DNA from: an uncultured Saprospiraceae bacterium
GTDB lineage: Bacteria > Bacteroidota > Bacteroidia > Chitinophagales > Saprospiraceae
Length of the DNA: 64,000 nt
Reading direction: 5' to 3'
Assembly (NCBI GenBank): GCA_937959115.1
Contig: CALGAW010000035.1
Location: 62,001-126,000, forward strand
The notes below the pieces were generated by a model. It had not been told where the DNA came from and did no database searches. It saw nothing but the letters and a program-made list of their open reading frames with translations. The number at the start of each line of letters is the position of its first letter. The first letter of the stretch is position 1. Below are positions 53,503 to 55,715 of the stretch, piece after piece. A program made the translations under genes and the position numbers.

Positions 53503-55170
53503 TTAAAAACGGTACTGAAGGCCTAGTTTTCCGCCAAGCACCTGTTGCTTGTGCGCTATTGTTTTATAGTCTGCAACTGTGATATCTTTTGGTGTATATC
53601 TGAAATAGGGAGTGCATGTCAACCATATGTTTTTAGCTATTCTTCTACCGATAGAGAGTTCCCCCATGTAGTTTAGTCCTACGCTCGATTTATAATAATC
53701 AGCTTGATTAGCCTTGATGTCCGCAAACTGGCCTTCAGCAATAAGTACTGTTCCTTTCGTCTTTAGGGCTAGGTTTAGAAGTACACCAGCTCTCACTCCA
53801 AATCTCCAATTACGGTTTAACTGTTTGTGGTATCCAATGGATAATGGAATATCGTAAAATTGATACTTGTTAAATATCCGTTTCTCGTAAACAGTCTTCT
53901 CTTCTAAAAAGAATGTGGAATACTGCATGGTCGAATCTTCTTCCATTAAGGAAATATGAATCGTATCAAGAAAAACGACTGGTTGACTTCTGACAATCGA
54001 ATCATTATAGTCAAACCGATCTGTAAACTGAGTTCGTGAAATTCCAGTTGTCACTTCGAAACCGCTTTTGTGCTGCATTCCTATGACGATTCCCTGTGAA
54101 GATGCTTCTAGTTTCTTTTCTGAGCCACTTCTCAAGAGGTGCGTCTGCGAAGAGTCGACAACTGTAGAGTCCAAAAGCGATTTAAATGAATATCCGATAC
54201 CTCCTTGCAGCGCAACATAGAATTCAAATTTCTTCTGTGGATTGTTCGTTTTCGCTTCAGGAGAACGAGATTCTGCAATCAACACAGAAGAGTCGCGTAT
54301 CCTAATCAGTTTAAACGGTGGTAGGATAAGATCAATCATCTTAGCGGGGAGCAACTGAATTTCTGTTTCTTCTGGTGTTACTAACGGCTTCTGCGTACTT
54401 TGTGACGGCTGTTTACCGCTTTGTTTAGTAATAGTTGTCTGGGTTGTGATGACTGTTTGCTCGTCATTGTTATGCTTATTCAAGCCAGTGACAATCTGTT
54501 GCACTGAAATTGGGTTGCCAAGCTGAATCAATGGCTTATTGCTAGTGTTGTTGTTGTTGTTGTTGTTGTTGTTGTTGTTGTTTAGTATAGGCGCAGTAAA
54601 TGGTTGAGTTGCCTTGTTGTCTATTTGCGGGTTGGTATATGCTATATAAGGAAGCGGTATGTCAGCCTTCTGTGGAACTGAATTACTGAATTCTGATTTA
54701 GAAGAAGTTGTGGATTGCTGTGTGCCCGAAATCTGTTTCTGTGTGCTCGTAATCTGGTTGTCTTGTCTCTTATTTTTAGTTGAGTTTGAGTTTGTCGTAA
54801 TTGAATTTGTTGTTGTGTTGGATGAGGTGGCGTTTTCCTCTTTATTTCTTGGCAATGCGTTGATATCAATTACATTCGATTCTTTTGTTCGGCTATTTGT
54901 AGCTGTATTTTGGACGGTGTTTATATTAGAATTTGATTCTGTGATTGTTTTTGTATCGGCATTACGAGTCAGCAGTAATCCTGCTAAGAATCCTAGGATT
55001 GTAAGTCCAAGAAACCACCATAGGAATAAGAACCTACGTTTCTTTTTCTTTTCCTCGTTTATGCTGTCAACGGCTGGCTCAATATTGGCCCAGATGGCAT
55101 CAATATCTACTGGAGATTGATGTGCAAGCATATCTTTTTTTATTTTACTTCTAAACTTCCGCCAAGTCAT
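53503..55170 (-). CDS. Anti-sigma-like inner-membrane protein fused to an outer-membrane barrel-like domain
   Basis: 555 residues. Cytoplasmic head (1-46, VDIDAIWANIEPAVDSINEE), one membrane helix (47-68), a very low-complexity Ser/Thr/Asn/Gln linker (about 70-310) with a run of 12 Asn (197-208), then a beta-rich C-terminal domain (about 312-555: FYVALQGGIGYSFKSLL, GMQHKSGFEVTTGISRTQF, RFGVRAGVLLNLALKTKG, ending GGKLGLQYRF) of outer-membrane-barrel type with terminal Phe. Its start overlaps the sigma-factor stop by 4 bp, and its N-terminal layout matches the anti-sigma partners in such pairs. One chain may therefore reach both membranes. The 12-Asn run is encoded by a (GTT)12 microsatellite. 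Confidence 0.76.
   Translation of the reverse strand: MTWRKFRSKIKKDMLAHQSPVDIDAIWANIEPAVDSINEEKKKKRRFLFLWWFLGLTILGFLAGLLLTRNADTKTITESNSNINTVQNTATNSRTKESNVIDINALPRNKEENATSSNTTTNSITTNSNSTKNKRQDNQITSTQKQISGTQQSTTSSKSEFSNSVPQKADIPLPYIAYTNPQIDNKATQPFTAPILNNNNNNNNNNNNTSNKPLIQLGNPISVQQIVTGLNKHNNDEQTVITTQTTITKQSGKQPSQSTQKPLVTPEETEIQLLPAKMIDLILPPFKLIRIRDSSVLIAESRSPEAKTNNPQKKFEFYVALQGGIGYSFKSLLDSTVVDSSQTHLLRSGSEKKLEASSQGIVIGMQHKSGFEVTTGISRTQFTDRFDYNDSIVRSQPVVFLDTIHISLMEEDSTMQYSTFFLEEKTVYEKRIFNKYQFYDIPLSIGYHKQLNRNWRFGVRAGVLLNLALKTKGTVLIAEGQFADIKANQADYYKSSVGLNYMGELSIGRRIAKNIWLTCTPYFRYTPKDITVADYKTIAHKQQVLGGKLGLQYRF
54547..54582. repeat. (GTT)12 microsatellite
   Basis: 36 bp of perfect GTT repeats on the plus strand, AAC on the coding strand, giving 12 Asn in the linker of the anti-sigma/barrel protein. 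Slippage would change the linker length by whole residues. Confidence 0.95.
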
Positions 55171-55715
55171 GCTGTGTTATATTTTCGTTGAAAATAAGAT
55201 GTACTAAGTTTTTCTTTCAAAGCTTTTTTCGCTCTAGTCAATTGTGATCTTGAAGCACCTTCGGATATGTTGAGCATTTCACTTACTTCTTTGTGGCTGT
55301 AGCCTTCAATGACGTATAAGTTAAACACTGTTCTATAGCCTTCAGGTAGTTCTTCAATTATTTCTAAAATGTCATCAGCATCAAGTTTCATATAGACATC
55401 AGGTACCTGACCTTCTTCTTTAATGTGCTCCTCTTCGATCGAGTTGATCAATTTAGAGTTTTTTCGTAACCAAGAGAGTGCACATCTAGTTGTTATAGTA
55501 CGCATCCACCCTTCAAAAGAACCAATTGGCTTATATCTGTCTATGTTTCCAAAAATTTTGATCAGGCTTTCTTGCAACACATCTTTGGCTGCAGCTTCGT
55601 CTCTGACATACCTTCGACTTACAGACATCAGCATTGCTGAATACCGTTTCACCAGTAAGTACTGGCTCGACTTTACGCCTTTTTGACAATCCTGTATCAG
55701 TTGTTTCTCAGTCAA
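55167..55715 (-). CDS. ECF-type RNA polymerase sigma factor
   Basis: A 182-residue sigma-70 family factor of the extracytoplasmic-function type. Region 2 (about 20-90: VRDEAAAKDVLQESLIKIFGNIDRY, GSFEGWMRTITTRCALSWLRK) and region 4 (about 125-175: LPEGYRTVFNLYVIEGYSHKEVSEMLNISEGASRSQL) are typical. It overlaps the anti-sigma-like gene by 4 bp, a usual sigma/anti-sigma arrangement, and follows a lipoprotein gene by 32 bp. The regulon is unknown; the operon itself may be included. Confidence 0.94.
   Translation of the reverse strand: MTEKQLIQDCQKGVKSSQYLLVKRYSAMLMSVSRRYVRDEAAAKDVLQESLIKIFGNIDRYKPIGSFEGWMRTITTRCALSWLRKNSKLINSIEEEHIKEEGQVPDVYMKLDADDILEIIEELPEGYRTVFNLYVIEGYSHKEVSEMLNISEGASRSQLTRAKKALKEKLSTSYFQRKYNTA

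Follow-up and report, generated by a model that had tools for sequence, protein, structure and literature searches.

Can one polypeptide hold a sigma factor in the cytoplasm at one end and sit in the outer membrane at the other, and what would it report? The question is raised by two overlapping genes in a 64,000-nucleotide stretch of DNA (the window) from an uncultured Saprospiraceae bacterium (contig CALGAW010000035.1). An earlier note, made from the sequence alone, had proposed that an extracytoplasmic function (ECF) sigma factor gene is followed there by the gene of an anti-sigma factor fused to an outer-membrane barrel, able to relay envelope strain or damage to transcription. The pair is a Saprospiria representative of the Dma (Reo) kind, an architecture already published, so that the two-membrane idea is not new; that it checks the state of the outer membrane is, on balance, probable.

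The gene pair and its parts

The sigma gene stop and the anti-sigma gene start share ATGA, which is the 4-bp overlap already described, recovered on the minus strand. The two genes and the parts of the second product are as follows.

55167..55715, minus strand: ECF sigma factor gene (182 amino acids; TTG start; relatives align from the same N-terminus)
53503..55170, minus strand: Dma-type anti-sigma factor gene (555 amino acids; assigned by the gene order common to relatives and by the head profile)
55033..55170, minus strand: head, presumed cytoplasmic and sigma-binding (residues 1-46; predicted helices 3-16 and from 23)
54967..55032, minus strand: inner-membrane helix (residues 47-68, KKKKRR just before; hydropathy, model helix 23-70)
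54232..54966, minus strand: predicted disordered periplasmic tether rich in S/T/N/Q (residues 69-313; composition and predicted local distance difference test score, pLDDT)
54547..54582, minus strand: pure (GTT)12 run, AAC on the coding strand (12 Asn, residues 197-208, within the tether)
53506..54231, minus strand: predicted outer-membrane barrel (residues 314-555; eight long strands in the model; OMP_b-brl_2 in relatives)

The 182-residue protein is an ECF sigma factor by Pfam (Sigma70_r4_2, E 4.7e-18; Sigma70_r2, E 1.9e-14), and among the NCBIfam matches listed the ECF superfamily alone was above the cut-off. At full length, the 555-residue protein has no Pfam match and no significant NCBIfam family; it matches the head profile described below at E 1.2e-19, the profile itself having been built with this protein included. 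What had been seen in the letters, namely the open reading frames, their overlap, the helix, the linker and the C-terminus GGKLGLQYRF, is confirmed. The most hydrophobic 19-residue stretch begins at residue 48, in agreement with the helix placed at 47-68. The head had been called acidic, a description that does not hold: residues 1-46 contain 12 K/R vs. 7 D/E, residues 1-40 being near neutral (6 K/R, 7 D/E) and followed by KKKKRR. By the positive-inside rule, such a cluster ahead of a helix goes with an N-in orientation, and an N-in topology is what we infer for the 555-residue protein.

The low-complexity linker, put at about 240 residues, covers residues 69-313 (245 residues, 48.6% S/T/N/Q) and has neither Cys nor Trp. 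The window holds 37 stop-to-stop frames of 200 residues or more; that of the 555-residue protein is the only one with a 200-residue stretch of at least 45% S/T/N/Q. In a full-length model, helices were found at 3-16 and 23-70, pLDDT was below 50 at 73-212 and 214-311, and the same barrel was obtained as with the C-terminal part; the tether is thus predicted to be disordered.

The predicted C-terminal barrel

An AlphaFold2 model of the last 256 residues, made from their alignment with 25 relatives, has eight long strands and one short (mean pLDDT 89.6; predicted template modelling score 0.79). Foldseek matches were outer-membrane proteins, i.e. OpcA, OmpA, Ail, FadL and NspA (best E 7.4e-6; TM-scores of 0.2-0.5 on the query). 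When the matches were realigned, a designed membrane barrel reached Z 19.1, followed by the OprF N-domain (Z 17.9, root-mean-square deviation 2.3, 133 aligned) and OmpA 1qjp (Z 17.1, deviation 2.2, 134 aligned). The likeness to the N-terminal barrels of OmpA and OprF is one of eight-stranded fold only; these barrels have a signal peptide before them and a peptidoglycan-binding domain after them. At the sequence level, OMP_b-brl_2 (Pfam, E 0.01 or better) was matched by 18 of the 26 aligned C-terminal parts and, in a different set of relatives, by 11 of 29 full-length proteins. Among the 26, the window protein's own C-terminal part has a match of E 0.0063, which falls short of the curated cut-off. 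Against PDB sequences, a profile of 29 full-length relatives returned nothing meaningful and the barrel profile only weak FadL/OmpA matches (best E 0.011).

The C-terminal domain is therefore predicted to be an outer-membrane barrel and not a soluble sandwich, the model and the Pfam matches of relatives favouring what the earlier note had assigned by eye. As had been suggested, the outer-membrane part is also predicted to be linked covalently to the head and helix, in a protein whose gene directly follows an ECF sigma gene. A TonB-dependent receptor was considered as well and rejected, the barrel being fused, of about 242 residues and OMP_b-brl_2-like, with TonB_dep_Rec_b-barrel matched in 1/26 (E 0.0053).

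Distribution among relatives

A search of 149 genomes of the window's order gave matches in 29, the window's own genome included. For 28 of the 29 other loci of the order, a sigma gene lies directly 5' of the homologue on the same strand, one of these sigma genes being cut by a contig end and one found only in a wider stretch (L020/L031; loci are given by their L numbers); at the 29th locus, L011, the contig ends before the head. An alignment of nine sigma factors was also scanned against the genome collection, and the best 80 of 592 confirmed loci (595 pattern matches) were analysed. The head profile was made from the head plus helix as found in proteins of the order; of the 80 proteins encoded downstream of related sigma genes, 75 match it (E <1e-3). 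When it was run on 1569 open reading frames from these loci, a set that includes the neighbours, 73 neighbours and a single further frame matched. For the barrel profile, the figure is 30 of the 80, so that the head is the constant part and the C-terminal part the variable one. The gene order, which the earlier note had proposed to look for elsewhere, thus recurs in other genomes and is more than chance; on this recurrence and on the head profile in 75/80 neighbours, a coincidence limited to the sigma gene was rejected.

As for the wider taxa, some part of the family profile was matched by 45 of the 49 genomes sampled from the window's class, compared with 3 of 149 from the remainder of the phylum, both counts being derived from the kinship order of the listing. 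Bacteroidales and Tannerella loci with the same gene order stand in here for Dma1-3/Reo, Dma1-3 being likened by their described architecture. In three Tannerella-type loci, the next gene downstream encodes a NigD-like lipoprotein.

Heads may also occur in tandem: four copies of the head motif were seen in L005 (residues 1-122), about five in L157 (residues 1-146, by eye), and two or three in L080, L101, L097, L082, L056 and L064. Several sigma factors might be held per anchor in such proteins.

Tether length was surveyed in 113 sequences, of which 60 match the barrel profile; in 13 of the 60 no position could be assigned to the barrel start, which left 47 to be measured. Tether length ranges from 120 to 412 residues (3.4-fold), with a coefficient of variation (CV) of 0.284 vs. 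0.045 for barrel length, and the shortest tether has a contour of about 43 nm. By this measure, the window tether has 246 residues, and those of near relatives have 180 (L003, L039) and 173 (L041). Linker length, whose conservation the earlier note had proposed to check, thus varies. Pure codon-repeat tracts such as (GTT)12 change length easily. The tether of L023 contains a run of about 26 Gln (by eye), and with the 12 Asn of the window protein, tethers seem to grow by codon repeats.

A single Cys lies 8-12 residues ahead of the first barrel strand in 28 of the 47 relatives (e.g. L002, L012, L016, L111). It is often the sole Cys of the protein, no other Cys was found in the 47 tethers, and it might form a disulfide or a partner site.

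Published relatives and comparison systems

The closest described systems come from Bacteroides and Phocaeicola, and the same two-membrane architecture was published between 2022 and 2026 (PMC9308784, PMC13088901, PMC13114119). Dma1, Dma2 and Dma3 of Bacteroides thetaiotaomicron, with their Das sigma factors (ECF21), consist of head, helix, disordered tether and barrel, and the Dma2 phenotype depends on the sigma factor Das2 (PMC13088901). In the EcfO-Reo pair of Bacteroides fragilis and Phocaeicola vulgatus, the anti-sigma factor is predicted to cross the periplasm and to end in an outer-membrane barrel (PMC9308784, PMC13114119). Inactivation of the anti-sigma gene turns the regulon on, the authors tie induction to envelope stress, and many of the induced genes are also switched on by bacteroidetocin A, which inhibits BamA (PMC9308784). 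Reo has been described as spanning every compartment and as a likely sensor of outer-membrane stress (PMC13114119). NigD-like genes are the class controlled by Dma1 and EcfO.

The window protein resembles the Dma family in its ECF sigma neighbour, head, single helix, disordered tether and C-terminal barrel; it differs in belonging to Saprospiria and in lying behind a lipoprotein gene, while Dma3 has the sigma domain fused. With EcfO-Reo it shares an anti-sigma factor with C-terminal barrel encoded downstream of an ECF sigma gene. The EcfO-Reo regulons contain nigD genes, whereas no NigD-type gene like that of the three Tannerella-type loci is found near the window pair, no genome-wide nigD search having been made. 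The FoxA/FoxR/FoxI and FecA/FecR/FecI systems likewise place a barrel, an inner-membrane anti-sigma factor and an ECF sigma factor in one pathway, but in these the barrel is a protein of its own, a TonB-dependent receptor that carries a signalling domain, while that of the window is small, of OMP_b-brl_2 type and fused. The outer-membrane partner FoxA protects the anti-sigma factor FoxR from proteolysis (PMC11637429); the excerpts of PMC12045153 and PMC8999054 contain nothing on the two-membrane architecture.

Proposed mechanism and alternatives

By analogy with the published relatives, the head of the 555-residue protein would hold the ECF sigma factor in the cytoplasm in an inactive state. 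The inner membrane would be crossed by one helix, the periplasm by a slack disordered tether, and the barrel would sit in the outer membrane as a checkpoint of its state: with a folded and anchored barrel, the anti-sigma factor would be stable and sigma held. Should barrel assembly fail or the outer membrane be damaged, the anti-sigma factor would disappear or loosen, proteolysis being the most likely route, and the freed sigma factor would transcribe its regulon, probably including its own lipoprotein-led operon. Several points weigh against this reading: the head has no classical anti-sigma domain match in Pfam; the pre-barrel Cys of 28/47 relatives is absent in the window protein, whose one Cys is residue 519, so that details may differ within the family; and sensing of a surface glycan fits the anatomy as well.

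The last point leads to the strongest of the alternatives, although we consider it rather unlikely: with the same anatomy, the barrel would be a ligand receptor, and a surface molecule such as a glycan would free sigma independently of damage. A ligand receptor has been proposed for Dma2, whose authors favour surface-glycan sensing (PMC13088901), and the long hairpins of the barrel model (72-107 and 114-151) could be surface loops; on the other side, the barrels of relatives are only 11-33% identical to that of the window, and the Reo inducers named are antibacterial toxins (PMC13114119, PMC9308784). Damage as the signal, one half of the earlier idea, is what the Dma/Reo authors propose; the other half, in which the head would be detached from sigma by a tether tension that depends on periplasmic spacing, is disfavoured and appears improbable. 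In its favour, all 47 tethers have at least 120 residues, enough to cross a periplasm, and a worm-like-chain calculation (parameters assumed) puts the force at 25 nm at about 5 pN for the tether of the window. The large CV of tether length compared with that of the barrel, together with the (GTT)12 run, argues against a strain signal; moreover, the estimated force at 25 nm spreads from 2.6 to 15.9 pN across tethers (parameters assumed), and loci in which the barrel is a separate protein (see below) have no covalent link to pull on. A slack leash with a minimum length, not a gauge of set length, fits these data.

It is more doubtful still that the protein is no anti-sigma factor at all, but an outer-membrane barrel protein merely sharing the operon of sigma, its helix being an uncleaved signal anchor. 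The absence of a Pfam anti-sigma match would agree with this, but no other part is as constant as the head between neighbours with and without a barrel (75/80), the NCBIfam 'antisigma' model is matched by 2 of 29 relatives at E 0.01 or better, and the published relatives act as anti-sigma factors (PMC13088901, PMC9308784). Least credible of all is an ordinary inner-membrane anti-sigma factor with a soluble beta-domain, a candidate to which the weak Pfam match of the window protein lends something, and which is rejected on the model, on the 18/26 relatives with an outer-membrane barrel match and on the best structure-search matches, these being outer-membrane or designed membrane barrels.

Three wirings among the sigma loci

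The 80 sigma loci comprise 36 long anti-sigma proteins (at least 370 residues), 27 short ones with a barrel-like next gene, 10 short ones without, and 7 unlabelled. The long loci, labelled 'fused' by length in the tree, include 33 with barrel support (29 by barrel profile, 4 by Pfam), L076 and L113 with PKD/CHU_C domains, and L062, which is of ambiguous kind. In the split loci, a barrel-less anti-sigma factor is followed by a separate secreted barrel-like protein, the label being given by the length of the next gene product and by a regular expression applied to its C-terminal end (the look of a last barrel strand). OMP_b-brl_2 was matched by the next gene in 16/23 and 3/4 of them, i.e. 19 Pfam-confirmed of 27, and a profile-profile comparison relates fused and separate barrels (probability 89.6, E 1.9e-6). 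For the next gene of 22 long loci, OMP_b-brl_2 was not among the 25 of 36 families listed, which means that at most 1/22 has it. The resulting Fisher test (19/37 vs. at most 1/22; p 1.7e-4) overstates independence, since the 80 loci are kin. Tether lengths are similar in split (162-222 residues, median 191) and fused proteins (120-412, median 176, n=47), and the split tether ends carry conserved segments within families.

A third wiring was found in two Bacteroidales loci, L076 (4554-7100) and L113 (4538-6728), where the sigma gene is followed by a head-helix-PKD-PKD-CHU_C protein and a PorP/SprF gene. CHU_C is matched at E 1.9e-4 and 2.7e-6 and PorP/SprF at E 3e-58 and 3.4e-34, respectively; the head match is weak in L076 (E 0.023) and reaches E 0.00069 in L113. 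CHU_C (type IX sorting) proteins dock on PorP/SprF barrels.

When the labels are placed on a 114-row sigma tree, 4 changes are required for the 27 split rows and 8 for the 67 long rows; only some of the split/fused branches have good support (of 111 inner branches, 29 are starred), with a support of 99 for a seven-row Sphingobacteriaceae split clade. Split organisms named are Sphingobacteriaceae, Cytophagales and two Flavobacteriales, while the fused ones are Saprospiraceae, Lewinellaceae, Chitinophagaceae, Tannerellaceae and other Bacteroidales.

The window's own genome has 32 PF04542 matches, and the head profile (<1e-3) is matched by 7 of the 32 downstream proteins, the window's included. 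Two of the same-head proteins, L156 and L169, have a barrel by Pfam; in L157 (C63), with five PxxxxW-type head motifs by eye, no barrel was found in the C-terminal part. L177 has a barrel match with a weak head (E 0.011). The protein of L172:1342-6546 (C17), encoded directly after an ECF sigma gene, has 1735 amino acids, with an anti-sigma head, a helix, and MG2, A2M and related domains.

Judged from gene order and profiles, it is an even call whether these wirings are interchangeable ways to tie one anti-sigma head to an outer-membrane barrel, be it fused (Saprospiria, Chitinophagia, Bacteroidales), split, or through PKD/CHU_C and PorP/SprF. The split wiring would then be a TonB-free form of cell-surface signalling, standing between the Fox/Fec systems and the fused form, and the PKD/CHU_C anti-sigma factor would hang on the outer membrane via a type IX secretion partner. 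Against such a general rule, the own-genome protein of L170 ends in a DUF6265-like part (E 0.0038), that of L172 in an alpha-2-macroglobulin-like one and that of L166 is short, and at 10 of the 80 loci the anti-sigma factor lacks a barrel with no barrel-like protein encoded beside it, so that the rule has exceptions. No description of the split and CHU_C wirings was found among the top-ranking results of the literature searched.

Predicted upstream lipoprotein gene, candidate promoter elements and neighbourhood

Upstream of the pair, the following features were found.

55748..57451, minus strand: predicted lipoprotein gene (567 amino acids; weak CarboxypepD_reg match; lipobox by eye)
57501..57509, minus strand: TGCAGCGAA, candidate promoter element (9-mer), upstream of the lipoprotein gene
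57652-57725, plus strand: tRNA-Lys (TTT), on the opposite strand just upstream of the lipoprotein gene

The lipoprotein gene ends 32 bp before the sigma gene, and its homologues occur in nine related loci (L033, L035, L036, L037, L038, L039, L041, L042 and L099); this conservation suggests that the three genes probably form an operon led by the lipoprotein gene, which is probably self-regulated. The 9-mer TGCAGCGAA precedes the lipoprotein gene in four of nine regions (window, L037, L038, L039) and is absent there in L042, L099, L033, L035 and L036. The 10-mer ATGCAGCGAA occurs once in the window (expected 0.09).

A promoter motif of relatives, GCAAC-N17-CATC, was present in 23 of 79 upstream regions (at most 5 in shuffles). 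In a loosened form, it was found in 22/27 split, 6/36 long, 0/10 'neither' and 0/7 unlabelled loci, the motif having been found and counted on the same loci. It is absent near the window pair, the two matches in the window being at chance level. Upstream of sigma genes from L037 to L116, it reads as a promoter-like TGCAACC, about 16 bases and GCATCT, in the same 22/27 split and 6/36 long loci (background 0.016 per 200 bp).

The region is flanked by two long proteins of similar style, of 510 and 493 amino acids (50945-52477, minus strand; 58924-60405, plus strand), which start with 'LTKQEVRNFKIYANR' and 'LDNQELNEFGRYVNT', respectively.

Implications

The window pair extends the Dma/Reo architecture to Saprospiria, and in the class of the window this architecture is near-universal. 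The wider wiring pattern, drawn from gene order and profiles, is a more interesting lead than the pair itself. If the wirings are interchangeable, the pathway would need the end of the tether on a barrel, not a covalent bond, and the split form would make the barrel-to-tether contact testable in trans. Should the split and type IX forms work as gene order suggests, the link from the outer membrane to sigma could be tested via a single small barrel gene, with the anti-sigma gene left intact.

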